From: Bacillota bacterium
GTDB taxonomy: Bacteria > Bacillota > Bacilli > Alicyclobacillales > SLC66
DNA length: 48,037 nucleotides
Reading direction: 5' to 3'
Assembly: GCA_021846285.1 (NCBI GenBank)
Contig: JAJZCB010000019.1
Location: 1 to 48,037, forward strand
Within the stretch, counting starts at the first letter, position 1; each line of letters opens with the position of its first letter. The position numbers and the translations under genes are program-made. The notes beneath the pieces were generated by a model, which was not told the DNA's origin, did no database searches, and was given only the letters and a program-made list of their open reading frames with translations. Shown piece after piece: positions 33,397 to 45,111 of the stretch.

Positions 33397-33455
33397 GCCT
33401 CTTCCACCCCATTCTGTGTGTCCTTCAGCCCGTATGGGCAACGTCGTATCGTGTG

Positions 33456-33530
33456 TCTTTCAAGCTCTGCTCCATTGCGTTTCATGTGTCTTTCAAGCTG
33501 CTCTATTGCGTTTCGTGTGTCAGTAAGCCT
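33456..33530. repeat. Imperfect tandem repeat between the Phe T-box and pheS
   Basis: Two and a half units of about 31-33 bases share TGTGTCTTTCAAGC and ATTGCGTTT. They lie in the roughly 210-base segment separating the T-box terminator from the pheS start, which is long for such a leader. No protein-like frame uses the transcribed strand here. Confidence 0.7.
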
Positions 33531-33604
33531 CTGGACTCTGGAGTCCGATCCCGCATCGTGTGTCTTTCGCCGTATCCGGCTATTCAGCCATTTGCGTCAG
33601 AAAG

Positions 33605-34004: not shown

Positions 34005-34406
34005 TCACTGTGTCCAATCATCCATCCGCAACCCTCGAACCCGCTCAAACTCCCGTGTGTTGTTCGTCACCAACACCACATCGAGCGACAGCGCATGTGC
34101 GGCGATGAGTGTGTCAAGCGGACCGAGAGGCCGCCCCTGAGCCTCTGATTCCGCCCGTATCTGCCCGTACACAACTGTCGCATCCACCGTAAATTCCGCA
34201 ATGTCGAGTGGCAAGAGGAACGCTTCCAGCGCGACCTGATTTCGTTCTTTGTGAACGCTTTTCGCGACGCCGTATTGCAACTCTGCGACAGTCATTACGG
34301 AAACACCGAGTTCTCCTGTGCGAAATGCGCGCATCCGGTTCACCAGCGTCTCTGACCGCCTTTTGATGACATAGATGCATATGTTCGTGTCAAGCATGTA
34401 GAGCAT
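34005..34406 (-). CDS. vapC: PIN-domain toxin VapC
   Basis: This 133-residue PIN-domain ribonuclease starts MLYMLDTNICIYVI. The acidic active-site residues are all visible: D6, E42 (TVAELQYG) and D98 (GPLDTLIAAHAL), plus the TNNTREF C-terminal strand. VapC toxins cut tRNA or rRNA and are held inactive by VapB. The frame extends upstream to 34502, but the ATG at 34406 overlaps the TGA of the antitoxin gene (TGATG), the usual coupled arrangement. The protein looks complete. Confidence 0.93.
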   Translation of the reverse strand: MLYMLDTNICIYVIKRRSETLVNRMRAFRTGELGVSVMTVAELQYGVAKSVHKERNQVALEAFLLPLDIAEFTVDATVVYGQIRAESEAQGRPLGPLDTLIAAHALSLDVVLVTNNTREFERVRGLRMDDWTQ

Positions 34407-34636
34407 CAGAATGGTTCCTCGCGTTGCTGTTCTGACGGTTGATCGCGCTCGCTCATATAATCGTCTGAGAACAAATCCAGGGATTGGGCCAATGAGTCCC
34501 ATGCGTCCTCCACAGGCAACAGCACCACGGCTTTCCCGACCCGTTTTACGTATACCTCCGTGCCGCCAAAACGAAATTCCTTGGGCAAACGAACCGCCTG
34601 GCTCCGACCAGTTTGAAACAGCTTTGCTCGCTCCAC
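34406..34636 (-). CDS. vapB: AbrB-type antitoxin VapB
   Basis: This 76-residue protein has an N-terminal SpoVT/AbrB-like DNA-binding fold (KLFQTGRSQAVRLPKEFRF) and an acidic C-terminus that would wrap the toxin. It starts at GTG, with GGGAGG eight bases before. A palindrome in the promoter (34656-34672) is the likely self-repression site for the VapBC complex. It is the first gene of the two-gene operon. Confidence 0.92.
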   Translation of the reverse strand: MERAKLFQTGRSQAVRLPKEFRFGGTEVYVKRVGKAVVLLPVEDAWDSLAQSLDLFSDDYMSERDQPSEQQREEPF

Positions 34637-34672: not shown

Positions 34673-34874
34673 TCATGCGCACAATTGATGCAATCTGCCG
34701 TTTCCTTGCCCCGACTGGAATCCAAAATGACCTCGCGTTTTGGCCGCGATAACACGCTGTTGTGTTCCAAGCTACGACCTGTCGCTTTGCCTTGGTGATC
34801 ACGCGCGCACCCGAAAGCCCATGGCCTGTTGCGCTCTCATCTCCTCAGCGCAGAACATGAATTTGCGTCATTTC

Positions 34875-34900
34875 GATTTGGTCAGATATAAGACCAAATC
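34875..34900. other. Perfect 9-bp hairpin in the vapB upstream gap
   Basis: GATTTGGTC and GACCAAATC flank an 8-base AT-rich loop. No T-run follows on either strand. Just before it, TTGCGTCATTT (34862-34872) repeats part of the stem-loop family seen further right. Nothing else is evident in the 34673-34964 gap. Confidence 0.45.
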
Positions 34901-34964
34901 ATCGTCTACACAAACTTGACTTCCAGGTACAACGGGAGCGTTGTGCTAAATAACTCCTATGCCG

Positions 34965-35144
34965 TCATCCGATGAATCTGCCGTTCCACAGAGCCAAGAA
35001 AGTCGTCCGTTCTCCGCTCCTGTTTTCTCGCCAGCATCTCTCCACATAATCACGGGATTTGCTGACGTCGTGACCAAATAGCCCATCGTAGATCAGATCA
35101 ACGTCGTTGCCCGCCATCTTGCGAATTTGAATGGATGAACCCAT
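34965..35144 (-). pseudogene. N-terminal fragment of a GNAT acetyltransferase
   Basis: A frame starting MGSSIQIRKMAGNDVDLIYDG and ending LALWNGRFIG at a TGA gives 59 residues that look like the first strands of a GNAT acetyltransferase. The acetyl-CoA-binding motif is missing. Neither a frameshift nor suppression of the stop restores a recognisable continuation in the next 100 bases, so the gene is truncated rather than interrupted by one change. Confidence 0.6.
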
Positions 35145-35203
35145 ATCGCCGCCTCTCGGTTCCCACCATTTCCTGCATTGACGACTCTGCAAACGCCATA
35201 ATT

Positions 35204-35237
35204 CTTCTGTCGCATTCGCACCCGATAGCGACAGAAG
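35204..35237. repeat. Cassette stem-loop A
   Basis: A perfect 10-bp stem (CTTCTGTCGC with GCGACAGAAG) has a 14-base loop containing CACCCGATA. The loop matches other stem-loops in the array, while the stem has its own sequence. It lies between the GNAT fragment and the next GNAT gene. Confidence 0.75.
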
Positions 35238-35324
35238 CTAAAATCAAATATTCTGTATCCGTGTCGCCAGAGTAACGAAATTTCTAACAGTTCATTTATT
35301 TGTACGACTTCCGTCGAACGTCCA

Positions 35325-35858
35325 TCAGCGCAGATCGAGGGCGTATAATACCTTGTCATATCGCATAGTACCAACAGCCACAAAACGAGGTAACCGCCCG
35401 TATTCCGTGAATCCCAGAGATCTATACAATTGGGCGGCGCGCTCATTGTCACCACGGAAATCTAGGGTTAGCACCTCAATTTCAGCGCTGACCGCGTTCG
35501 AAATTAACTGACTTATAAGTTGGCGCCCTAAACCACGACCTTGATACCGAGGATCGACTGCTACTTTTTCGATGTCGGCATTAGGGCGATGGGTGGGGCG
35601 ATTGTAGCGCCTCCAGTATCCGAGTCCCGCAAGGTCTGGTCCGACCCAAACCGAAAGCAGGCACGCATCACCGTGCTCACTTGCGGTGGACAACTCCCGA
35701 AGCAGGCAGACCACCTCGTCCGTTGAAGGTGGATCGACCCAACCGATTGCCGCACCGTTTGAAACGAGCTGCTGTATAAGCCGCGCTGCACTCTCGACAA
35801 ATGCAAAGTTTTCAGTATCCCTAACATCAATTGCACGTAATACAATAGACTCTTTCAC
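35325..35858 (-). CDS. GNAT family N-acetyltransferase
   Basis: This protein of about 177 residues has the acetyl-CoA pyrophosphate-binding motif as VDPRYQGRGLGRQLIS, and the downstream AQLYRSLGFTEYGRLPRF block is characteristic. GNAT enzymes acetylate amino groups on small molecules or proteins. The substrate cannot be inferred. The frame opens with an ATG at 35876, but GGAGGGG precedes a GTG at 35858, which I prefer. Stem-loops flank it on both sides (35204-35237, 35920-35951). Confidence 0.85.
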   Translation of the reverse strand: MKESIVLRAIDVRDTENFAFVESAARLIQQLVSNGAAIGWVDPPSTDEVVCLLRELSTASEHGDACLLSVWVGPDLAGLGYWRRYNRPTHRPNADIEKVAVDPRYQGRGLGRQLISQLISNAVSAEIEVLTLDFRGDNERAAQLYRSLGFTEYGRLPRFVAVGTMRYDKVLYALDLR

Positions 35859-36380
35859 GCGACGCCCCTCCGTCATACCTTTATAATTAGGTTTATCAAT
35901 TTAATACATCGGAGCAGATACTTTGTGTCACATTTCTCCCGATAGAGACAAAACGCCCGTCGCCCAGCACGGAATATTTATCCGATCACACTCCATACAT
36001 AAACCGAACGACTCACCACATGGCGACGTCGTTCGACCCTGCCTGGCGAGAAAAGCACGACGCCCATCCCATGGTCAGTGTAGCACTATTTACAGCGCAT
36101 GCTATCACGGTCGCCGAGGGTCGCCCAGGTCGTCGATCACGTTAATGGGACGTTCGACTACGGCCCGCCGCCACCCCATTGCAAGAGCGGGCGCGTACGC
36201 GATTCTCCTCCGCCTGGTGGTGGTTGAATGTGCAAATCGAATTGTCAGACTTCAGTGACCAAGGGAAAGTAGTCGGTGCGGAACTGCAACAACGATGATG
36301 AATATTTATTCTCGCTGATTCACCGGATCATATGGGATATTCGCCTCCTTTAGAGACAGAACACATGGTTGATGTAGCGG
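35859..36380. other. Gap with a stem-loop and otherwise decayed sequence
   Basis: Apart from the stem-loop near 35920-35951, the stretch has no convincing gene. On the reverse strand a short frame ends in RRAVVERPINVIDDLGDPRRP near 36109, which reads like a protein C-terminus but has no identifiable start or partner. It may be the end of a lost gene. Confidence 0.35.
35920..35951. repeat. Cassette stem-loop B
   Basis: TTTGTGTC and GAGACAAA form an 8-bp stem with one mismatch around a loop with TCTCCCGATA. The loop matches the CCCGATA of the other family members. It separates the NUDIX and GNAT genes. Confidence 0.55.
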
Positions 36381-36851
36381 TTATCTGTACACCCCTTGTC
36401 TCTTTGCAAGCCAGTCCTTTAAAGCATCCTCGTGTGATCCGGCAAACAACGGAGGTACTTCATCCGGAGGAAAGAAAGCCAATTCCAAGGTTTCATCCCC
36501 ATCTACCATAAGCTCCCCACCGATTGGTCTGCATTGAAAGAAGCATAAAATGGTTTGTGCTTTGTCACCATTCGGGAACTCTCCTGAATACTTCGAATAA
36601 ACACCAATCAAATGCTCGACTTCAACGGTCAATCCCGTTTCCTCATAAATTTCCCGTTTTGCAGTTTCCTCAATAGACTCCCCAAGTTCCATAGCACCAC
36701 CTGGGAACCCCCACTGGTTTCGGTCACCACGCTTTTGCAGTAGAACCTCGCCTCTCTCGTTATAAACGATGCCTCCAGAAAAGTTGAGGAATATCAAATC
36801 ATGCCCGACTTTTCCACGAATGTAACGAATGTAATCCTTGTTTGTAGACAT
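36381..36851 (-). CDS. NUDIX hydrolase
   Basis: This 156-residue protein has a complete NUDIX box, GGAMELGESIEE plus REIYEETGL (about residues 60-82). That motif binds the metal and positions the water that cleaves a diphosphate linked to another moiety. Preceding QKRGDRNQWGFPGG and following YSKYSGEFPNGDKAQ segments fit housekeeping or damage-nucleotide NUDIX enzymes, but the substrate is open. GGGAGG before the ATG at 36851 fixes the start nine codons inside the open frame. It lies in the minus-strand array with a stem-loop upstream. Confidence 0.9.
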   Translation of the reverse strand: MSTNKDYIRYIRGKVGHDLIFLNFSGGIVYNERGEVLLQKRGDRNQWGFPGGAMELGESIEETAKREIYEETGLTVEVEHLIGVYSKYSGEFPNGDKAQTILCFFQCRPIGGELMVDGDETLELAFFPPDEVPPLFAGSHEDALKDWLAKRQGVYR

Positions 36852-36910
36852 ATGAGCCTCCCATATGTAGTCAGACATTCAATTCAGCAAGTTCAATTAC
36901 GTTCCTGGAC

Positions 36911-36985
36911 ATTCCTGCCCGATAGCGACGCAAGACCTTTCGTTCGACAGCCTTTGCGTCATTTAGGCACCCGATAGTGACATAA
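36911..36985. repeat. Cassette stem-loop C (double unit)
   Basis: The 55-base core (36911-36965) differs from the one at 44008-44062 at a single position. It contains ATTCCTGCCCGATAGCG, then an 8-pair stem GACGCAAG with TTTGCGTC. A second CACCCGATAGTGAC follows at once, so two units are joined. It lies between the NUDIX gene and the lipoprotein gene. Confidence 0.8.
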
Positions 36986-37017
36986 ACGTAGCTATTTATC
37001 ATACAAAAAGACAACAG

Positions 37018-37383
37018 TCAAGGCTTCTGTGTCCCAACAGCATTCGCTTTCACGAATGTACCGTTCTTTAACTTCACAGCTACCGCTTTGCTGGTGTTTG
37101 CTCGTAGGATCGAAAATACTTGAACTGCATTTTTATTGTTTGTTTCCCATCCAGACGAGCCTTGAGAGGAACTCCAAGAAAAATTCCAAAGAGGATGCGA
37201 GACATTCGTCACCTTTTGAGCAGGAGATATCACGTAATATTCAGTGGGTTTCCCCAGACGGTAATAGCTAACCCATGATGGTCTGTTTGGACCTGAATGT
37301 AAGTCCTTTACCGGTTGTTTTGTTTGACCGCAACCCGTCAATAACATCGGGATCATAAGCAATGCGATGCTGAATTTCTTCAT
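37018..37383 (-). CDS. Small predicted lipoprotein
   Basis: This 121-residue protein begins with a lipoprotein signal, MKKFSIALLMIPMLLTGCG, where Cys18 would be lipidated and anchored to the outer face of the membrane. The mature part is rich in Ser, Asn and Lys with several Trp and Tyr residues (WVSYYRLG, WNFSWSSSQ). I do not recognise a family. AAGGTGAA precedes the ATG. It sits between unrelated enzyme genes in the array, downstream of the kinase gene. Confidence 0.75.
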   Translation of the reverse strand: MKKFSIALLMIPMLLTGCGQTKQPVKDLHSGPNRPSWVSYYRLGKPTEYYVISPAQKVTNVSHPLWNFSWSSSQGSSGWETNNKNAVQVFSILRANTSKAVAVKLKNGTFVKANAVGTQKP

Positions 37384-37495
37384 GTTGTGTTCACCTTAGA
37401 TTTAGACGTAACATTTCTCCCTTTGGTTGCAGAGTAAGGTTTCCCAATTGTCTTCGACAAAATTCAAAGCTGTCCCTATGCAGCTAAACTGTCCG

Positions 37496-38026
37496 TTAAT
37501 CCAAATGTCCGACAAGCTCCACCTGGGTATTGTCCTTCAAAACCAATAGTTTGTCTTGATATTGGCGTAGGATGCTTAGGATTTCTGGTTTGCTTTCTCG
37601 CTCAAAACCGGCATTCCAGACAAACATCATCTTGAACATCCGAATGGTTGGCCTGTAGTTTGACTTTTCCATTCCTAATTTCTGTAGGATGAACCGTTTT
37701 ACAATTCTCACTACCCGTTTGTGATAGCCCACATCCAAAAATATAATCAAATCAGCTTTCTGAAAGCCGACGAGAACCCATTTATGATGAGCGCCTTCAA
37801 TAATCCAGGTATCGGAGTTGACTATTTCCGTAAGATATTCGTCCCTCTCTTCATCACTTCTTCTTATGTCGCCAGACTTAGACCGCCTCCACACAACATT
37901 GTCCAATTCGTAGTACGGCACGTTCAATTTAACCGAAAGGGCCTTGGCCAGAGTTGTTTTTCCGCTTCCCACAGACCCAATGATGTGTATTCTGGCTGGA
38001 TAGCCATTGTTGAACAAGACCATCAT
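37496..38026 (-). CDS. P-loop kinase-like protein (FlaR/adenylate-kinase-like)
   Basis: This protein of about 176 residues has Walker A GSVGSGKTTLA, a following YYELDNVVWRR block and Walker-B-like LIIFLD. These fit small kinase-fold proteins often annotated as DNA topology modulation protein FlaR-like. The name is historical and the substrate is unknown. The frame begins with a GTG overlapping the stop of the upstream phosphatase gene, but GGGGGT before the ATG at 38026 marks a more likely start near the conserved IHIIGSVGSGKT. A related kinase lies at 45108-45641. Confidence 0.8.
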   Translation of the reverse strand: MMVLFNNGYPARIHIIGSVGSGKTTLAKALSVKLNVPYYELDNVVWRRSKSGDIRRSDEERDEYLTEIVNSDTWIIEGAHHKWVLVGFQKADLIIFLDVGYHKRVVRIVKRFILQKLGMEKSNYRPTIRMFKMMFVWNAGFERESKPEILSILRQYQDKLLVLKDNTQVELVGHLD

Positions 38027-38067
38027 CAGTTTACCCCCACAATAGCTTCCGACGAACTTATTAGGCA

Positions 38068-38676
38068 CTAGAGGTCATAATCAAAAGGGGACTGGATGCT
38101 CTCAATAGCGCCATTTGATAATTTGAAGATGGTGTTTTGTGAAACCTCTAATTGAAGAGCTTTTGTCTTTTCGAATTTGGCATAGATACCACGCAAAATT
38201 CGACCACTAAGTCCATGTGAAATGGCAATGACTCGCGGGAAATTCTTGATGCTGTCGAGCCAACTTGATACGCGGGTAACTACCATTTCGTAAGTTTCCC
38301 CGTCGGGATTATTGAAGTACCAGTTATATTGGTTCGTATTTGCTAATGCTCCTGGAAACTGCTCCTCGATTTCACTGATTGTTAGCCCATCCCAAGACCC
38401 TAACGAAACCTCGGTGAGGCGGTGATCGATTTTTACTTTACTAAAATCATAGCCCAGGGTATTACATATGATTTGTGCAGTCTGCAAAGTCCTTCCAAGG
38501 GGGCTTGCAATCACTTTCATCCTGGACACGTCATGTACTGTTACGCGGAGCATGTGAGCTACTTCCGATACTTGCTCAACACCGTACTCTGTGAGAGGAG
38601 AATCCAATTGTCCTTGGTAGCGCCCTTTCATGTTAAAGACGGTCTCTCCGTGTCTCACCAGATATATTTCGCTCAA
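38068..38676 (-). CDS. Histidine phosphatase family protein
   Basis: This 202-residue phosphoglycerate-mutase-like protein has the catalytic LVRHGET near the N-terminus (the His is phosphorylated), a second basic motif in SPLGRTLQTAQ, and the late ISHGLSGRILR histidine. These enzymes remove phosphate from sugars, nucleotides or cofactors, and the substrate is not evident. It starts at TTG with AGGAGGG six to seven bases before. The gap upstream (38677-39121) contains a group II intron fragment. Confidence 0.88.
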   Translation of the reverse strand: MSEIYLVRHGETVFNMKGRYQGQLDSPLTEYGVEQVSEVAHMLRVTVHDVSRMKVIASPLGRTLQTAQIICNTLGYDFSKVKIDHRLTEVSLGSWDGLTISEIEEQFPGALANTNQYNWYFNNPDGETYEMVVTRVSSWLDSIKNFPRVIAISHGLSGRILRGIYAKFEKTKALQLEVSQNTIFKLSNGAIESIQSPFDYDL

Positions 38677-38759
38677 ATCATTCCCTCCTATTGACCAAAA
38701 CGATCAACTGAATATTTCCTCTTTGGGCTATTCTTGCGGTGCTACCTTTATGTGACTCC

Positions 38760-38991
38760 AGATGCGGCGCCTTCTAGGTTCAATAGTGTCAGAGCAACCC
38801 GTAGTTACCGTATATGTTGCTAGGGTACAACTACGGTCCCAAATTGTTAAGCTCCGGCACCTTGATCTATCACGGCTACTTAGTCCACAAAATTACTCCT
38901 GTGAACCCAAGACTCGCCACTGGTGACTTGACTTTAGTCTTACCAGGCAGGGTTTTCACCTGCTAAATAACACGACCTTGCCCGGCCGCAC
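38760..38991 (-). mobile_element. 5' fragment of a group II intron
   Basis: On the reverse strand the sequence starts GTGCGGCCGGGCAAGG, the GTGYG start of group II introns. It continues with AGGTGAAAACCCTGCC and other domain-I-like elements (GTGGCGAGTCTTGGGTTCAC). A short hairpin (ACTTG with CAAGT) lies just before the 5' end, as at some intron insertion sites. No reverse transcriptase or domain V is present, so only the 5' part remains. The left boundary at about 38760 is approximate. Confidence 0.5.
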
Positions 38992-39121
38992 CGAAACTTG
39001 AGTTCACAAGTATGATCGAAACGCCAGCCGACAAATATTTTGTCTCCCTCTTGCCGCCACGATACCCGGTCGTTACACTGAGTACATATGGAAATCAATC
39101 CGGGAAAGGGGATGATCCTCA

Positions 39122-39664
39122 GTGGACGGCCGCACCAAGGAGTCCTCCCCTCAGTATGAAATGACGCGGTGGGAGATGATCGACGGCGTCGTGTATGACA
39201 TGTCCCCGCCGCCATCGACGCCGCATCAAAGAGTGAGCGGAAGTCTCCACGCCCTATTTTACGTCTATCTGCAAGGAAAGTCATGTCAAGTATTCCATGC
39301 TCCCTTTGGCGTATGGTTCCGAGTCGAGGATGAAGATGAGCATGTGGAACCGGATATCACGCTCGTCTGTGATCCGGGCAAACTGCAGCACAGGGGTTGC
39401 GTCGGCGTTCCCGACCTGATCGTCGAGATCCTGTCGCCTTCCACATCCGCCAAGGATCGCCGGATCAAGTTGCGCAAATACGAGCGTGAAGGCGTGCGCG
39501 AGTTCTGGATCGTCGACCCGCTCACGGAGTACGTCGAGGTCTACCAACTCGGCGCAGACGACAAGTATGCAGAACCCGATGTATACGAAAATACGGCGAC
39601 TCTCCAGGTCGGCATATTCCCCGACCTCGCCATCGATTTGAAGCAGGTGTTCACTACCCCGTAG
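39122..39664 (+). CDS. Uma2-family (DUF820) restriction-endonuclease-fold protein, copy 1
   Basis: This 180-residue protein has the PD-(D/E)XK-like core of the family: EPDITLVCD, then VPDLIVEILSPSTSAKDRRIKLRKY with the catalytic Asp, Glu and Lys. Uma2 proteins are common in cyanobacteria and some Firmicutes. A nuclease function is predicted from fold only. It begins at GTG after GGGAAAGGGGATG. A near copy follows 602 bases on. Both lie on the plus strand between the two minus-strand runs of the array. Confidence 0.85.
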   Translation: MDGRTKESSPQYEMTRWEMIDGVVYDMSPPPSTPHQRVSGSLHALFYVYLQGKSCQVFHAPFGVWFRVEDEDEHVEPDITLVCDPGKLQHRGCVGVPDLIVEILSPSTSAKDRRIKLRKYEREGVREFWIVDPLTEYVEVYQLGADDKYAEPDVYENTATLQVGIFPDLAIDLKQVFTTP

Positions 39665-39723
39665 GGCGTGCAGAGGTCAGCGAGTACATCTGGAAATCAA
39701 TCCGGGAAAGGGAATGATCCTCA

Positions 39724-40266
39724 GTGGCCGACCGCACCAAGGAGTCCTCCCCTCAGTATGAAATGACGCGGTGGGAGATGATCGACGGCGTCGTGTATGA
39801 CATGTCCCCGCCGCCATCGACGCCGCATCAGAGAGTGAGCGGTAACCTGTACGCCTTCTTTCACACCTATCTGCGCGGCAAGCCATGTCAGGTATTCCAC
39901 CCGCCATTCGGCGTATGGTTCCGATTCGAAGATGAAGATGAGCATGTGGAACCGGATATCACGCTCGTCTGTGATCCGGGAAAACTGCAGCACAGGGGTT
40001 GCGTCGGCGTTCCCGACCTGATCGTCGAGATCCTGTCGCCTTCCACGTCCGCCAAGGATCGCCGGATCAAGCTGCGCAAATACGAGCGTGAAGGCGTGCG
40101 CGAGTTCTGGATCGTCGACCCGCTCACGGAGTACGTCGAGGTCTACCAACTCGGCGCAGACGACAAGTATGCAGAACCCGATGTGTACGAAAATACGGCG
40201 ACTCTCCAGGTCGGCATATTTCCCGACCTGGCCATCGATTTGAAGCAGGTGTTCACGACCCCGTAG
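39724..40266 (+). CDS. Uma2-family (DUF820) restriction-endonuclease-fold protein, copy 2
   Basis: This 180-residue protein is nearly identical to the upstream copy in both its first 40 and last 100 residues, including all core residues. Most differences lie between about residues 40 and 68 (NLYAFFHTYLRGKPC here, SLHALFYVYLQGKSC in copy 1). The upstream 40 bases with the ribosome site are also duplicated. The pattern fits a recent tandem duplication followed by local divergence or gene conversion. It starts at GTG. Confidence 0.85.
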   Translation: MADRTKESSPQYEMTRWEMIDGVVYDMSPPPSTPHQRVSGNLYAFFHTYLRGKPCQVFHPPFGVWFRFEDEDEHVEPDITLVCDPGKLQHRGCVGVPDLIVEILSPSTSAKDRRIKLRKYEREGVREFWIVDPLTEYVEVYQLGADDKYAEPDVYENTATLQVGIFPDLAIDLKQVFTTP

Positions 40267-40377
40267 GGCGCGCAACTTAGCGCTTCCCGCCGTAGCGGAG
40301 GAGGTTCATCGTTCAAGCATGATAAACTTGATGCAAGCATGGGCAGAGCATGGTTTCAGCGAGAGAAGGTAGAAAGC

Positions 40378-41238
40378 ATGGCGTATCCAGAGGGAATGCG
40401 TGCAATTCCGCGCGAACCTGGTTTCCTGTTGGTCGACGACGAGAAACTGTACTATGAAACGGTCGGTGCGGGTGACCCCGTAGTATTTTGTCACGGGCTG
40501 GGGGGCAACGGCGGCATTTGGTATCAACAAGTGGCGGCATTCGCTAGCCAATATCAAGTCGTCGTCTGGGACCAACGCGGCTTCGGCAGATCGACAGACA
40601 ATGCGCGCAAGTGCAGTCCGGCCACCGCAGTGAAGGATTTGCGTCGCCTGCTCGATCATCTTGGCATTGACCGAGCTCATCTCATAGGTCAGTCGATGGG
40701 TGGTTGGGCGGCATTAGGTTTTGCGGTGGAAGCGCCTGATCGAGTTCGCTCCCTCACATTGGCTTCCACAACCGCCGGAATTCCCCTGCCGCCAGAAATC
40801 GTCCACAGTGCTGTTCAGAGACTCGCCCCTGACCGACAGGAAACTCAGTTCCTGGGGCTGCATCCAGCCATAGACGAGCGTCTGTCCGAACGAGATCTTG
40901 CGCTTTCCTACCTCTACCAAGTGATCGGCAGTTTTGGCGCGGAACGCTCCAATGCAGCCATGATGGCGAAGCTTCTGGCAACCGCGTATGATTCTGACCG
41001 GATTGCCAAGGTTGATTGCCCGGTTCTGTTCGTCTTCGGTGAGAATGATCAGACCATCCCCGCGCCACTGATCAGGGTTTTGGCAGCATCTGTGCGTGGA
41101 GCGCTGACTGTAGAAATACCAGAGGCCGGACATTCTCCATATTTTGAATCAGCGTCCACATGGAACACCATCGTGAAACGCTTCTTGGAGAACCGGACCG
41201 TTCCCTCACCAGAATCACTCATCCGCGGCCTGTGGTGA
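40378..41238 (+). CDS. Alpha/beta hydrolase
   Basis: This protein of about 286 residues has an oxyanion region FCHGLGG, nucleophile elbow GQSMGG with S106, a likely acid in FGENDQTIP and the catalytic His in PEAGHSPYF. It is cytosolic, with no signal peptide. The substrate is unknown; esterases, lactonases and C-C hydrolases share this pattern. I chose the ATG at 40378, preceded by AAGGT, over the ATG at 40339. It is a plus-strand gene following the Uma2 pair. Confidence 0.85.
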   Translation: MAYPEGMRAIPREPGFLLVDDEKLYYETVGAGDPVVFCHGLGGNGGIWYQQVAAFASQYQVVVWDQRGFGRSTDNARKCSPATAVKDLRRLLDHLGIDRAHLIGQSMGGWAALGFAVEAPDRVRSLTLASTTAGIPLPPEIVHSAVQRLAPDRQETQFLGLHPAIDERLSERDLALSYLYQVIGSFGAERSNAAMMAKLLATAYDSDRIAKVDCPVLFVFGENDQTIPAPLIRVLAASVRGALTVEIPEAGHSPYFESASTWNTIVKRFLENRTVPSPESLIRGLW

Positions 41239-41348
41239 GCGTTGTCGGCAGATAGGCTTGATTTAATGATCGTAACGATGCCAGAGCATCAAAACGGGTG
41301 GGTCATCGTGGCCAATCCGACAGAAACTTCTTCCCTGCCGTAGTGTAC

Positions 41349-41657
41349 TTATGGTGACATCCAAAGTGGGCGTAAACACACGTCGACTCGGCGCTCATCG
41401 ACTGTCAGCCAAGCCCCGCCATTCATGATCCCGCAACCCCAGCCCCCAATGTCAGAAACTTGACCCGGCCACCCCAGTTGCCGGATATCGTCCGGTGTAA
41501 ATCGGCCGCGATAGTAAATGGCAAAATCAAAATCGCGATCAAGATGATGGTCTCCCGTCACACGGGACCCGCCGAGCGCGACGGCGCATACTCCTGGAAC
41601 GCCAGCGAGACGCTGCGCCACATAATCGACGAATTGCTCGTCAGCGGAATTTCCCAT
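41349..41657 (-). pseudogene. Truncated nucleotidyltransferase
   Basis: About 102 residues carry the nucleotidyltransferase core VALGGSRVTGDHHLDRDFDFAIYY, with the GGS and DxD motifs, and the next strand up to DERRVDV. The protein then ends in about eight unrelated residues, while family members normally continue for another 100-150. No continuation appears in the next 100 bases. The active site is present but the remainder of the fold is missing. Confidence 0.6.
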
Positions 41658-41744
41658 CATGTCACCACTATCCGAATGGCTTCTATTCTCGGTGGGGAAT
41701 CCCGTGTGTTAGAAGATTCTTCGACCTTTTTAGAGCGTTCTCCT

Positions 41745-41818
41745 GCCCAAAAACGCATCAACGGTTAAGGCCCATTCTTTTCCTGCCCGAATGCGCCGCC
41801 GTTATGCGCAATAAGGCG
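41745..41818. repeat. Cassette stem-loop D (two units)
   Basis: Two TCCTGCCC-containing short palindromes lie in tandem: GCGTT...AACGC around TCCTGCCC, and TGCGC...GCGCA next to TCCTGCCCGAA. They begin two bases after the GrpB gene stop on the minus strand and end near the truncated nucleotidyltransferase gene. Confidence 0.6.
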
Positions 41819-41819
41819 A

Positions 41820-42329
41820 TTAGTCTTGCCACCCGGCTAATTGCAGCATTTCTTTTATAAATTCAGCCTTGCTATTGGTGTACGAGACACGGTCATTACG
41901 AAATCGTTGAGCGAGTTCTTGCCTTAGTTCACCGTACTCGTTTGCTTCGTCGGGGTGGCTTCTCAAGTACTCTCGAAACAAGATATGCCGCTTCAATTCT
42001 GCATTGCTTGTCTCGCAAACATACAGATGATGTGGAGGTAAGCCATCCGGCGAAGCAAAGGCTGCACGCCCTGAAATACCCAAGTCACCTTGATGAATAT
42101 AGCCAATGGATTCCAATCTCTGAATGGCGATAAGCACCTCAGCCTGGGAGTTGACTACAACATCCATATCGATGATCGGTTTAGCTGATAAGCCTGGAAA
42201 CGACGTACTGCCTACATGCTCTATTGCAACAACGATGTCCGTAAGGACTGGAGTTACGAAGTTCCGAACCATTTCAAACATAGAAACCCAACTTGGATTG
42301 TATTCAACTATTCTTATTGGTTCCACCAT
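41820..42329 (-). CDS. GrpB family protein
   Basis: This 169-residue protein is a typical GrpB (UPF0157) member. It begins IRIVEYNPSWVSMFE and has the IEHVGSTSFPGLSAKPIIDMDVVV block, then LPPHHLYVC. The fold belongs to the nucleotidyltransferase superfamily, with the GST and DxD positions visible. Function is not firmly known, and some relatives are associated with coenzyme A metabolism. It sits in the second minus-strand run of short unrelated genes, with the stem-loop pair directly after its stop. Confidence 0.9.
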   Translation of the reverse strand: MVEPIRIVEYNPSWVSMFEMVRNFVTPVLTDIVVAIEHVGSTSFPGLSAKPIIDMDVVVNSQAEVLIAIQRLESIGYIHQGDLGISGRAAFASPDGLPPHHLYVCETSNAELKRHILFREYLRSHPDEANEYGELRQELAQRFRNDRVSYTNSKAEFIKEMLQLAGWQD

Positions 42330-42366
42330 AGGTCCTCCAAACGTCAGTGTTCCTCTACTCTTCTCT

Positions 42367-42510
42367 CTATGATCTCTCTGATGTCCAAGAAATGACTAAA
42401 TCGCGGGCTTCCTGAAGATCAGCACCCGTTAGTGCGATAAACTCGGCGGTCTTAAATGGCGGATAATCGCCCAAAAAGTAGTGAGAGTGGAAGTGAGAGC
42501 GCAGTACCAT
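42367..42510 (-). CDS. Small hypothetical ORF (47 residues)
   Basis: I do not recognise this ORF. It starts MVLRSHFHSHYFLGDYPP and contains a helix-like stretch, FIALTGADLQEARDLVISW. Composition is protein-like and it fills the gap between the GNAT and GrpB genes on the same strand. No good ribosome site precedes it, so it may be the tail of a lost gene rather than an active one. Confidence 0.35.
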   Translation of the reverse strand: MVLRSHFHSHYFLGDYPPFKTAEFIALTGADLQEARDLVISWTSERS

Positions 42511-42546
42511 GACCTACGGGACTCGTGAGCTATATGTTTATTCGAG

Positions 42547-43032
42547 TTACAGCTTTAATACTGTTACTAGCTCATTTTCGTCGATCTTCTCACCGTTATC
42601 TCGAAACCCGAAGCTTTCGTAGAATTTTTTAGCAGTAATGTTGCTGGAAACATACGGTATCCAACAACATTCAGCAGGTCCTACTGGAAATGTACGTATG
42701 TACTCCAATACTTTTCGCATAGCCTCCCTACCATAGCCCATTTGCTGGTACTTCTCATCAATCATTAAGCGTAGTACGCTATAAGTGTTATTGTCCTTAG
42801 CTATTTGCGGAAGTTCGTAACTAGTAATGCCATAAACAATCAAAACAAAGCCGACCATCTGTTCATCAGCATAAATCGCGAAAGGAAGTGGATTTCCTCC
42901 ATTTGAAACAAGAATATAACACGTGGCAATACTTGACAGATTTGATGCAACAAAACGCAACTGGTCGGCTGAAACTTTTAACGAGAATAGTTCGCGTCGG
43001 TTATCCAATGTGATTTTTCTGAGTGTAACCAT
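42547..43032 (-). CDS. GNAT acetyltransferase (spermidine-acetyltransferase-like)
   Basis: This protein of about 161 residues begins MVTLRKITLDNRRELFSLKV and has the acetyl-CoA-binding segment MIDEKYQQMGYGREAMRKVLEY and the final AKKFYESFGFRDNGE, as in BltD-like polyamine or small-amine acetyltransferases. The specific substrate is not certain. GGGAGGA lies before the ATG at 43032, about 15 codons inside the open frame. A stem-loop of the array lies about 50 bases upstream. Confidence 0.85.
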   Translation of the reverse strand: MVTLRKITLDNRRELFSLKVSADQLRFVASNLSSIATCYILVSNGGNPLPFAIYADEQMVGFVLIVYGITSYELPQIAKDNNTYSVLRLMIDEKYQQMGYGREAMRKVLEYIRTFPVGPAECCWIPYVSSNITAKKFYESFGFRDNGEKIDENELVTVLKL

Positions 43033-43082
43033 GTTAAATTGCTCCTCCCAGAAACCAAATGACTTCTGTCTAATCATTCCAC

Positions 43083-43117
43083 TGCGTCTTGGTTATTCCT
43101 GCCCATAAACGACGCAA
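43083..43117. repeat. Cassette stem-loop E
   Basis: A 6-bp stem, TGCGTC with GACGCA, surrounds a loop that contains ATTCCTGCCCATAAAC. It belongs to the same family as the other array hairpins and lies between the GNAT and alpha/beta hydrolase genes. Confidence 0.65.
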
Positions 43118-43223
43118 TCGTGCACATCCAACGTGTATGTTTATGTATCAAAAAATCCAGTCCGTCTTGGATGCCTGCCTGCCCCCACAAGTTCAATGAC
43201 CATTAATCAGAGTTTCACGAAGT

Positions 43224-43919
43224 TCAAACATTCAAAAAGCGTTTTACTACATCCAAGAAGGCTGACAGGTTATCACGATGCACATGATGTCCAGCACCTT
43301 CTATGATTACCAATTCACAACTTGGAATGAGTTCAGCGACTTCCTGCAACTTATTCTGTGGAATCTTGCTAGTCGATCCCCCTCCTACAATTAGAGTCGG
43401 CGCACTAATATCGGTCAGATGAGCCCACCATTCAGGATTGGGTTCATTAAGCTGACGAAGAATAGACGGTACAACCAACCAGTCAAACGCCAAGGCATCG
43501 GTTGGTTCGGAAGGTATATCGATTTTTCTATAAGAAAAAGGCGGAGGCGTGTCCTCAACAACCAACCGTTCTAACCGTGACGAATATGATTCAGCAAAGA
43601 GATAGGAAACTGTTCCACCCATCGAATGACCAACCAAAGTGAACTGTTCCAAGTCCATGGCATCTGCGAAAAGATGAAGATCTTCACGCATCAGTCGAAA
43701 AGAATAGCTGTCCGTCCTTTCACTTCCACCGTGACCACGTTGGTCGAGTGCCAAAACCCGATAATTTCTACTCAATTCCGATGCAACCTTATCCCAGGAT
43801 TGTGCATCTTGTCCTAGCGCATGTAAAGCAATAAGAGGCGGGGAAGATGCGTCTCCCGTCTCACGATATTGAAACTTCAACCCATTTAATTCGATCTGAT
43901 GAACGAGTGTTTCGATCAA
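43224..43919 (-). CDS. Alpha/beta hydrolase
   Basis: This 231-residue hydrolase has an oxyanion region IALHALGQDAQSW, the DQRGHGGSE block, nucleophile elbow GHSMGG with S99, and the catalytic His in IEGAGHHVHRD. The cap domain is short. It is cytosolic, with unknown substrate. It starts at TTG with AGGAG six bases before. It is unrelated in detail to the hydrolase at 40378 and is flanked by stem-loops on both sides. Confidence 0.87.
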   Translation of the reverse strand: MIETLVHQIELNGLKFQYRETGDASSPPLIALHALGQDAQSWDKVASELSRNYRVLALDQRGHGGSERTDSYSFRLMREDLHLFADAMDLEQFTLVGHSMGGTVSYLFAESYSSRLERLVVEDTPPPFSYRKIDIPSEPTDALAFDWLVVPSILRQLNEPNPEWWAHLTDISAPTLIVGGGSTSKIPQNKLQEVAELIPSCELVIIEGAGHHVHRDNLSAFLDVVKRFLNV

Positions 43920-44007
43920 TAATCATCTCCTACATGGATTTTCAACCAATACTGGGCGTTTGTACCGTATCACGACGACAGGATAGTCCAGTCGATTCCT
44001 CTTCCGC

Positions 44008-44075
44008 ATTCCTGCCCGATAGCGACGCAAGACCTTTCGTTCGACAGCCCTTGCGTCATTTACGCACGCGTTTGT
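44008..44075. repeat. Cassette stem-loop F
   Basis: The first 55 bases (44008-44062) match 36911-36965 with one difference. An 8-pair perfect stem, GACGCAAG with CTTGCGTC, encloses an 18-base loop. It lies between the metallophosphoesterase and hydrolase genes. Confidence 0.8.
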
Positions 44076-44140
44076 TTAACAACGTTTGTCTGGTTTGGAC
44101 CAATACGTTGAACTTCATCGAATGCAGGACCTATCCCACA

Positions 44141-44914
44141 CTACTTTGGAAAATTGTCTACACTCTTTCGCTTCTCATAAGGAACTGGTTCCCAAAATCC
44201 AGACTGTAACGCTTCTCCGTACCAATCGGGAGAAAAGCAAAAGTCTACCTCTTTTGCCGCCCTCACGCTGTCCGCAATGTCATACTCTATCCTGTTTAGA
44301 CAAACAGACTTGGTGGATGTGTCAACAATGCAATAGGACGCTCTCCAATCTCGGTCAAGAGAAAAACCAATTGCCCCCGCATTTACGAGCATTACATATA
44401 GATGTTTGAAGACGAAGGGGCGATGTATATGCCCCATAAAAATCCAGTCTGCGTCAGCCTTTTGAGTCGCGTTATCCAACCGCTCCAAAGAATCAGTTGG
44501 TTGGATAGCTGAAAAACAATCTTGGGGAGTCCCGTGCACGAAAAGCAATTGTTGTCCGTCAACCTCAAGGCGATATTCGAAAGGCAATTGCGAAAGGAAG
44601 TCAATATCTGAAGATGACATTCTTGAAGTGTGCCACTGTAGATAAGGAATTTCAGCGACGTTTGGTTTATATGCAATGGAATGAGTGGGCTTTAGCCCAT
44701 CAACTACAGACAGAAGATACAGGTCTGTGTTTCCAAAAATGCACGGGATGCCAAGGGATTTTATTGTTCGTACACATTCACTCGGAGACGGTCCTTTAAA
44801 TGCGAGGTCGCCAAGACAAACGACCTCGTCTAGCTTGTCCTTCCCGATTCGTCGGAGAACCGCATCTAATGCAATCGAATTCCCGTGGATATCGGAAATA
44901 ACCCCGATTCGCAT
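44141..44914 (-). CDS. Calcineurin-like metallophosphoesterase
   Basis: This 257-residue enzyme shows all metal-binding motifs: SDIHGN (DxH), CLGDLAFKGP (GD), FGNTD (GN-D), VHGTP (H) and GHIHRP (GHxH). It resembles YfcE/MJ0936-type phosphodiesterases, with a C-terminal extension of about 60 residues. The substrate is unknown. Its ATG overlaps the stop of the small upstream ORF (TAATG), indicating coupled translation with that ORF and the kinase gene before it. Confidence 0.9.
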   Translation of the reverse strand: MRIGVISDIHGNSIALDAVLRRIGKDKLDEVVCLGDLAFKGPSPSECVRTIKSLGIPCIFGNTDLYLLSVVDGLKPTHSIAYKPNVAEIPYLQWHTSRMSSSDIDFLSQLPFEYRLEVDGQQLLFVHGTPQDCFSAIQPTDSLERLDNATQKADADWIFMGHIHRPFVFKHLYVMLVNAGAIGFSLDRDWRASYCIVDTSTKSVCLNRIEYDIADSVRAAKEVDFCFSPDWYGEALQSGFWEPVPYEKRKSVDNFPK

Positions 44915-45111
44915 TAAGAGCCTTCCTTCCGAAATAACGTTTGCAGCCCAGCGCCTGTGTCGCTAAACTGCCCATAAGCGCCATAGTCCATAAAAAGGAA
45001 TGCTCCCTCCTCGTTGACTGTAACCCAGCACATCGCGGAGGTCAACCCCCTGCCGTCACTGCCAGTGCTGACGCATACGGAGCGCTGACTCAAGTTATCC
45101 ATGATGTTCAT
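44914..45111 (-). CDS. Small hypothetical protein (65 residues) in a coupled three-gene operon
   Basis: I do not recognise this protein. It starts MNIMDNLSQRSVC and contains GAFLFMDYGAYGQFSD. Its start overlaps the kinase stop (ATGA) and its stop overlaps the phosphoesterase start (TAATG), so ribosomes can pass through all three. That double overlap makes a real gene likely. No signal or membrane segment is evident. Confidence 0.55.
   Translation of the reverse strand: MNIMDNLSQRSVCVSTGSDGRGLTSAMCWVTVNEEGAFLFMDYGAYGQFSDTGAGLQTLFRKEGS

Follow-up and report, generated by a model that had tools for sequence, protein, structure and literature searches.

The window analyzed here, a 48,037-nucleotide stretch from a Bacillota bacterium (assembly GCA_021846285.1, contig JAJZCB010000019.1; GTDB order Alicyclobacillales, family SLC66), carries a run of short genes separated by recurrent sites. 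Judging by comparison with related genomes, this run is very probably a cassette array belonging to an integron-like system for site-specific recombination in Bacillales. A preliminary description, made from the letters alone, had suggested a gene-cassette array at 34,860-44,080. Most of its observation was correct, and its reading as cassettes is supported: the checks it proposed and we ran, namely recurrence of the sites elsewhere, variation of genes between fixed flanks, placement of sites outside genes and a recombinase near an array end, all favored cassettes. Its boundaries need correction. The array extends from a leader at ~45,085 down to ~35,218 on the pheS side and comprises ~9 minus-strand cassettes, with sites that had been missed. 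Across genomes the comparison shows the site, the leader, exact breakpoints, a duplication, sharing between species, gene orientation and a link between integrase and site.

In the mechanism that we propose, each cassette would consist of a single gene, in many cases with a terminator of its own, and would end in a left half-site plus a hexamer (GCTAAC-GGGCAG or GCTATC-GGGCAG). The right half-site would be supplied by the first bases of the following cassette. A Xer-like integrase, encoded just upstream of an attI-like first site, would recombine at the 3' edge of the hexamer and so insert, excise and exchange cassettes, the first of which may be transcribed from a predicted promoter in the leader. 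An integrase of the clade described below is the presumed acting enzyme.

Breakpoints and mobility in the genus of the window

We compared window positions 32.3-48.0 kb with two congeneric genomes, G001 and G002. Both carry other cassettes at the locus, with the flanks kept and the breaks at the hexamer. In G001, the leader-side (right) flank matches at 97% identity as far as GGGCAGT (44968-44973), and the sequence beyond is unrelated. G002 retains pheS, the end flank (34960-35218) and the P-loop unit (37489-38041), which there is the first cassette after the leader, the 37.5-45.0 kb stretch being much shorter. Divergence between G002 and the window sets in directly after GGACAG (37489-37494), where a different NUDIX gene takes the place of the window's lipoprotein, NUDIX and GNAT units, and the two rejoin directly after GGGTGC (35218-35223). 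The end flank (34960-35217) is 92% identical to L108:1125-1382, and homology begins right after the hexamer.

A unit has also been copied within the window's own genome. The GrpB gene and its downstream site (41778-42439) are duplicated on a different contig at 96% identity over 664 bp (L002:5278-5941); the homology starts with AACGGGTGC and ends with TTCGGGCAGGAAAA, so that both edges lie on sites.

A conserved hexamer between two arms

The window contains seven copies of TCCTGCCC, where 1.73 would be expected, and none of 100 shuffled sequences reached seven. The preliminary description had counted five such sites in the window. These are indeed all of the plus-strand copies, at 36.9-44.0 kb, and two further copies on the other strand (9146 and 31926) lie in unrelated sequence. 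What had been described as a common loop (GGGCAG or GGGTGC) is a 6-nt center flanked by two half-site arms, and the stems differ between sites because each right arm belongs to the cassette that follows. Homology between copies ends at the 3' edge of the hexamer. Four sites are added to those listed before: 44968-44973, the first, in the leader; 42422-42427; 37489-37494; and 36967-36972.

The shared hexamer was thus borne out, and the stem-loops were borne out at two sites only. In a fixed register, good arm pairing was found at 35204-35237 (12/14, the best hairpin) and at the leader site (9/14), and pairing at most other window sites was at or little above chance. Arm covariation in 33 pooled sites did not exceed that of shuffled partners, though the consensus arms pair. 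Compensatory stems were not above controls in 181 Paenibacillaceae and 94 Bacillaceae sites, R1:L2 pairing in 17 composite sites was not above swapped partners, and arm-to-upstream pairing was not specific. Hairpins with compensatory stems were rejected because covariation exceeded neither shuffles nor swapped partners. These alignments describe the site as a conserved hexamer with a putative protein-binding half-site on either side, and not as a stem maintained by compensatory changes.

The alignment of 33 sites, together with a scan, gave two inverted arms of ~11 bp (11-14 bp) around 6 bp. The Paenibacillaceae site approximates ATTAAGCTAAC-GGGCAG-GTTAGYTTAAT. The 17 composite sites consist of a GGGAAAC-type site, ~35 nt with a GC hairpin, and then a GGGCAG site, the two being 60-75 nt apart; a similar composite is repeated ~9 times in the window's genus.

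Sites and shared units across Bacillales

An initial scan of the window's order with TCGGGCAGGAA stayed near background because the local sites are variable, and a phylum-wide scan with CTAWCGGGCAGKW gave the lead. The preliminary description had mentioned similar hairpins beside small orphan genes in other Bacillales, and the site does recur across this order in small-gene arrays: 364 sites were found in 1.59 Mb of related loci, compared with 2 in 0.91 Mb of block-shuffled sequence. The exact 14-mer TAACGGGCAGGWTA is present in 85 of 150 Paenibacillaceae genomes, with up to 35 copies, while its reversed control was nearly empty. A site covariance model located arrays of tens of kilobases in Peribacillus frigoritolerans (G327, positions ~32-128 kb of contig C17) and Paenibacillus pabuli (G126, contig C29), and array lengths reach ~100 kb.

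Edges of homology coincide with these sites. In related loci, 127 of 2088 internal homology edges lay within 25 bp of a site, against 1.3% expected, and the last shared base of upstream homologous blocks was most often the final hexamer base or the next one. Thirteen homologous blocks had both ends on sites where ~0.4 were expected. Whole units are shared between Paenibacillus species: a 1.15-kb unit is 97.7% identical between P. pabuli (G126) and a second Paenibacillus genome, G082, which the genome set assigns to separate genera, and 1.03-kb units are 96-97% identical in three Paenibacillus genomes, each a different species. Only 4% of 293 sites fell inside open reading frames, compared with 69% of random positions, so sites within genes are very rare. 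The nearest upstream gene was on the same strand as the site in 200 of 222 cases and on the opposite strand in 22.

If the region were an ordinary hypervariable intergenic stretch, with terminators or RNA hairpins between transferred genes and no site-specific recombination, then sites following terminators, as some do, and small GNAT and NUDIX genes, which are often transferred, would both be accounted for. We regard this explanation as hardly credible in view of the exact hexamer breakpoints, the sharing of whole units and the arms without covariation. Transcription terminators and known RNA families were moreover rejected as candidates, since a search of Rfam returned no match and terminator-like hairpins were at chance level (13 found, 14.7 expected).

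As a separate observation, site clusters in single-contig Paenibacillaceae genomes such as G436, G409 and G463 tend to keep to a single strand within each half of the chromosome, as co-orientation with replication would produce; this strand bias is confounded by gene orientation.

An integrase upstream of an attI-like leader

The preliminary description had noted that the window lacks an integrase and had proposed looking for a recombinase near an array end. Such a gene lies at the array start in related genomes and persists as a remnant in the window's genus. We found a Xer-like tyrosine recombinase of 280-282 amino acids inside the P. pabuli and Peribacillus frigoritolerans arrays, with named relatives in Bacillus, Sutcliffiella, Fictibacillus, Rossellomorea, Alkalihalobacillus, Neobacillus, Cytobacillus, Paenibacillus, Brevibacillus and others. 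It contains the PF00589 Phage_integrase domain, and R138, K162, H229, R232, H255 and Y264 are invariant, which places it in the tyrosine recombinase superfamily. Intact genes occur in many Bacillaceae and Paenibacillaceae. In an even sample of 249 genomes from the phylum, only three had a match at E <= 1e-60 and two of these are Bacillales, and therefore the family looks concentrated in that order. The gene is followed by a site after 46-63 nt in most Paenibacillus loci and after 74-101 nt in several Bacillaceae, where a terminator and a promoter-like sequence (TTGAGT-N17-AATAAT, predicted by eye) lie in between. Distances to the upstream site are scattered, which gives no support to the notion of the integrase gene as one more regular cassette.

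Within the window's order there are further integrase copies, and G005, from the window's family, has an intact gene; CGATTTC-GGGCAG is conserved ~158 nt after the integrase stop in G005, G007 and G014. In the window's genus, a leader element of ~100-130 bp is present in each of the three genomes, and the DNA that follows its hexamer differs from copy to copy (copies L106, L108, L110, L113 and L115, and also L114, in which the hexamer is lost). A promoter scan predicted the promoter-like sequence TTGACC-N17-TACAGT in the window's copy. In two G001 loci the reading frame ending at the leader TGA is a tyrosine recombinase C-terminus, and the G002 leader copy opens with a frame, KSETEQLYATLSG, that resembles an integrase tail. 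The window leader has room for only a few codons of this tail and is therefore a platform without its integrase. The absence of an integrase noted before thus stands: the leader has no integrase gene, and broken copies lie elsewhere in the genome. Since no intact one was found in its own genome, the window array is probably stranded; it is possibly still served in trans or by XerC/XerD.

At one place shared by two genomes, L187 (G000:C93) and L188 (G001:C168), a broken array integrase is followed by one site and then core genes, apparently an empty platform.

Several observations weigh against the proposed system. All of the evidence for recombination is comparative. Several window sites are degenerate, and 37.5-41.7 kb is eroded, with opposite-strand genes that lack clear sites. 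An intact array integrase was not found in the window's genome, which has only broken copies, none of them in the window. For 14 of 40 intact integrases, no site passed the threshold in the 1.5 kb downstream, though for some of these 14 a GGG-N3 site is visible by eye. Finally, related integrases on some plasmids and in phages do not adjoin such sites. No site follows the integrase gene in the phage relatives, and two plasmids carrying relatives (Peribacillus, Sporosarcina), near-equal in content, show no obvious array at the integrase.

Two further observations concern these relatives. IMG/VR contigs (L282-L361) encode tyrosine recombinases 37-62% identical to the array integrase, upstream of phage-like genes. 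On the Sporosarcina psychrophila plasmid pSP10-266k (L365), seven site-like matches accompany a related integrase within 21 kb, a possible mobile version.

Relation to Xer recombination and to integrons

The sites of dif and pdif modules, which are recombined by XerC/XerD, have inverted arms around a 6-bp center. The sites described here share this shape, and XerC/XerD are the closest enzyme family. Among known structures, the nearest to the array integrase are XerA and XerD. XerA, an archaeal single Xer (PDB 5hxy, 4a8e) that acts as a chromosome-dimer resolvase and is not known to act as a cassette integrase, is the best structural and NCBIfam neighbor; overall superposition of the integrase model on XerA is loose owing to a low-confidence hinge. 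We considered whether host XerC/XerD move the cassettes in the manner of dif modules, the array-borne integrase being incidental. The general likeness of 11-14 bp inverted arms and a 6-bp center would fit, as would the closeness of the array integrase to Xer/XerA models and the fact that the window's genome, in which array integrases are only broken, encodes other tyrosine recombinases away from arrays, with two of these grouping with Xer in the tree. We nevertheless judge this improbable. The arms and hexamer are unlike the dif sequence of Bacillus. In the tree the array integrases form two clades among phage relatives, separated from XerC/XerD with 100/99 support, and in many genomes the spacing between this dedicated integrase and the first site is fixed. 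An own integrase clade at the array start, a different site sequence and long ordered arrays with a predicted leader promoter set the system apart from Xer/dif. The array integrases scored 185-206 bits against XerC/XerD cut-offs of 330-335.

The integron-like system that we favor works like an integron and fails membership in the IntI family. As in integrons, in particular sedentary chromosomal integrons and integrase-less arrays (CALINs), a tyrosine recombinase gene lies beside a primary site, here with a predicted promoter. One-gene cassettes in one direction, composite sites, cross-species exchange and arrays without an integrase are likewise common to both. The attI-like site next to the integrase gene has a fixed spacing after the stop, a conserved left part and a variable right part, and cassettes pass as units from one array to another. 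This outline, including composites whose two sites stand 60-75 nt apart around a GC hairpin, would also fit a classical IntI integron, or a CALIN, with divergent attC sites. We consider such a reading very unlikely. Scores were 90-105 bits with TIGR02249 (cut-off 265) and 58-71 with NF011946 (cut-off 435). TIGR02249 aligns in two pieces, residues ~190-207 of the query facing profile positions ~182-240, which leaves no room for I2; the predicted structure has no helix between H173-185 and H206-219 (mean pLDDT, the model's confidence score, 79) and hence no extra I2 helix. In contrast to integrons, the integrase gene lies upstream of the array and points into it, not away from it, the enzyme is Xer/XerA-like, the sites share half-site arms and a conserved GGG-N3 crossover hexamer with no covarying hairpins seen (nor R1:L2 covariation), and the host range is Bacillales. 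Double-strand, Xer-style chemistry appears more likely here because the arms look like protein half-sites and the I2 of IntI is missing.

The prevailing view is that Firmicutes almost lack integrons and that capture depends on the I2 helix and single-stranded attC folding (PMC9024848, PMC7790495). IntegronFinder 2.0 reported one complete integron across all Firmicutes, in Limnochorda (PMC9024848), and I2 is described as an addition to a Xer-like ancestor, required for cassette capture and known only from IntI (PMC7790495). A natural cassette system free of I2 is an interesting claim for these reasons. On balance we favor the interpretation that Bacillales possess a gene-capture platform of their own, separate from integrons and equal to them in function, with an I2-free integrase and short double-stranded sites. 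Such a platform would have arisen by convergence, or else it would be an extant relative of the pre-I2 stage that has been proposed for the forerunners of integrons. If so, cassette capture would be possible without I2, by a Xer-like enzyme, in a system widespread in soil bacilli. It would offer a natural setting for testing the origin of integrons, and it would give access to a large and so far unused reservoir of accessory functions (GNAT, NUDIX, kinases, hydrolases, lipoproteins) moving between species. No description of the system was found in the literature searched, which did not extend to preprints and most subscription journals, so that a prior description is possible.

Layout of the array and its surroundings

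Pfam searches identified GNAT, NUDIX, GrpB, alpha/beta hydrolase and metallophosphoesterase genes; a P-loop kinase, a histidine phosphatase and a lipoprotein are further array genes, the 121-residue lipoprotein having no match in Pfam. The gene types named in the preliminary description were right, and its account of nearly uniform orientation needs one correction: a plus-strand block at 39.1-41.2 kb (two Uma2 genes and one hydrolase) lies among the minus-strand genes. Coordinates are collected in Table 1.

Table 1. Leader, cassettes and flank of the array, in window coordinates.
Feature	Position	Strand	Content
Leader (attI-like platform)	44955..45085	-	end of putative integrase reading frame (TGA), TTGACC-N17-TACAGT (predicted promoter), GAGGAGG, CATTCCTTTTTATGG, first hexamer
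Site 1 hexamer GGGCAG (attI-like)	44968..44973	-	actatggcgcttat-GGGCAG-tttagcgacacagg
Cassette 1	44012..44967	-	metallophosphoesterase 44141-44914 (Pfam Metallophos_2); composite site 44007-44075
Cassette 2	43099..44011	-	alpha/beta hydrolase 43224-43919; terminal site hexamer 43099-43104
Cassette 3	42422..43098	-	GNAT 42547-43077; terminal site hexamer 42422-42427 (GGGTGC)
Cassette 4	41783..42421	-	GrpB gene 41820-42329 (Pfam GrpB); site hexamer 41783-41788
Geneless mini-cassette, 40 bp	41743..41782	-	bounded by sites 41783-41788 and 41743-41748
Degenerate stretch	37489..41742	mixed	minus strand: nucleotidyltransferase fragment 41349-41660, histidine phosphatase 38068-38676, P-loop kinase 37496-38068; plus strand: two Uma2 genes, hydrolase; no clear sites between them; terminal site 37489-37494 (GGACAG)
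Lipoprotein cassette	36915..37488	-	gene 37018-37383; composite attC-like site (hexamers 36967-36972, 36915-36920)
NUDIX cassette	35935..36914	-	gene 36381-36878; terminal site 35935-35940 (GGGAGA)
GNAT cassette	35218..35934	-	gene 35325-35876; terminal site 35218-35223 (GGGTGC)
Array end flank	34960..35217	-	GNAT-like fragment, then PIN/MazE pair and pheS

At the array end, 34005-34636 encodes a MazE-like antitoxin and a PIN-domain toxin; this pair is mostly missing in G001, where the break carries a CGGACAG motif. Four imperfect 22-nt direct repeats of the CGTATCGTGTGTCTTTCAAGCT type lie at 33445-33573, in the interval from pheS to the array end. A 53-nt element at 38950-39002, unrelated to the cassette site, also occurs at 85-87% identity in G000:C20 (L118) and G002:C78 (L121). 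The Uma2-family genes are in tandem (39080-40266), with 300-nt stretches 91% identical, and in G001 the Uma2 block (39001-41352) adjoins the pheS side instead. The hydrolase that follows the Uma2 pair (40315-41353) has a 90% copy elsewhere in its own genome (L122).

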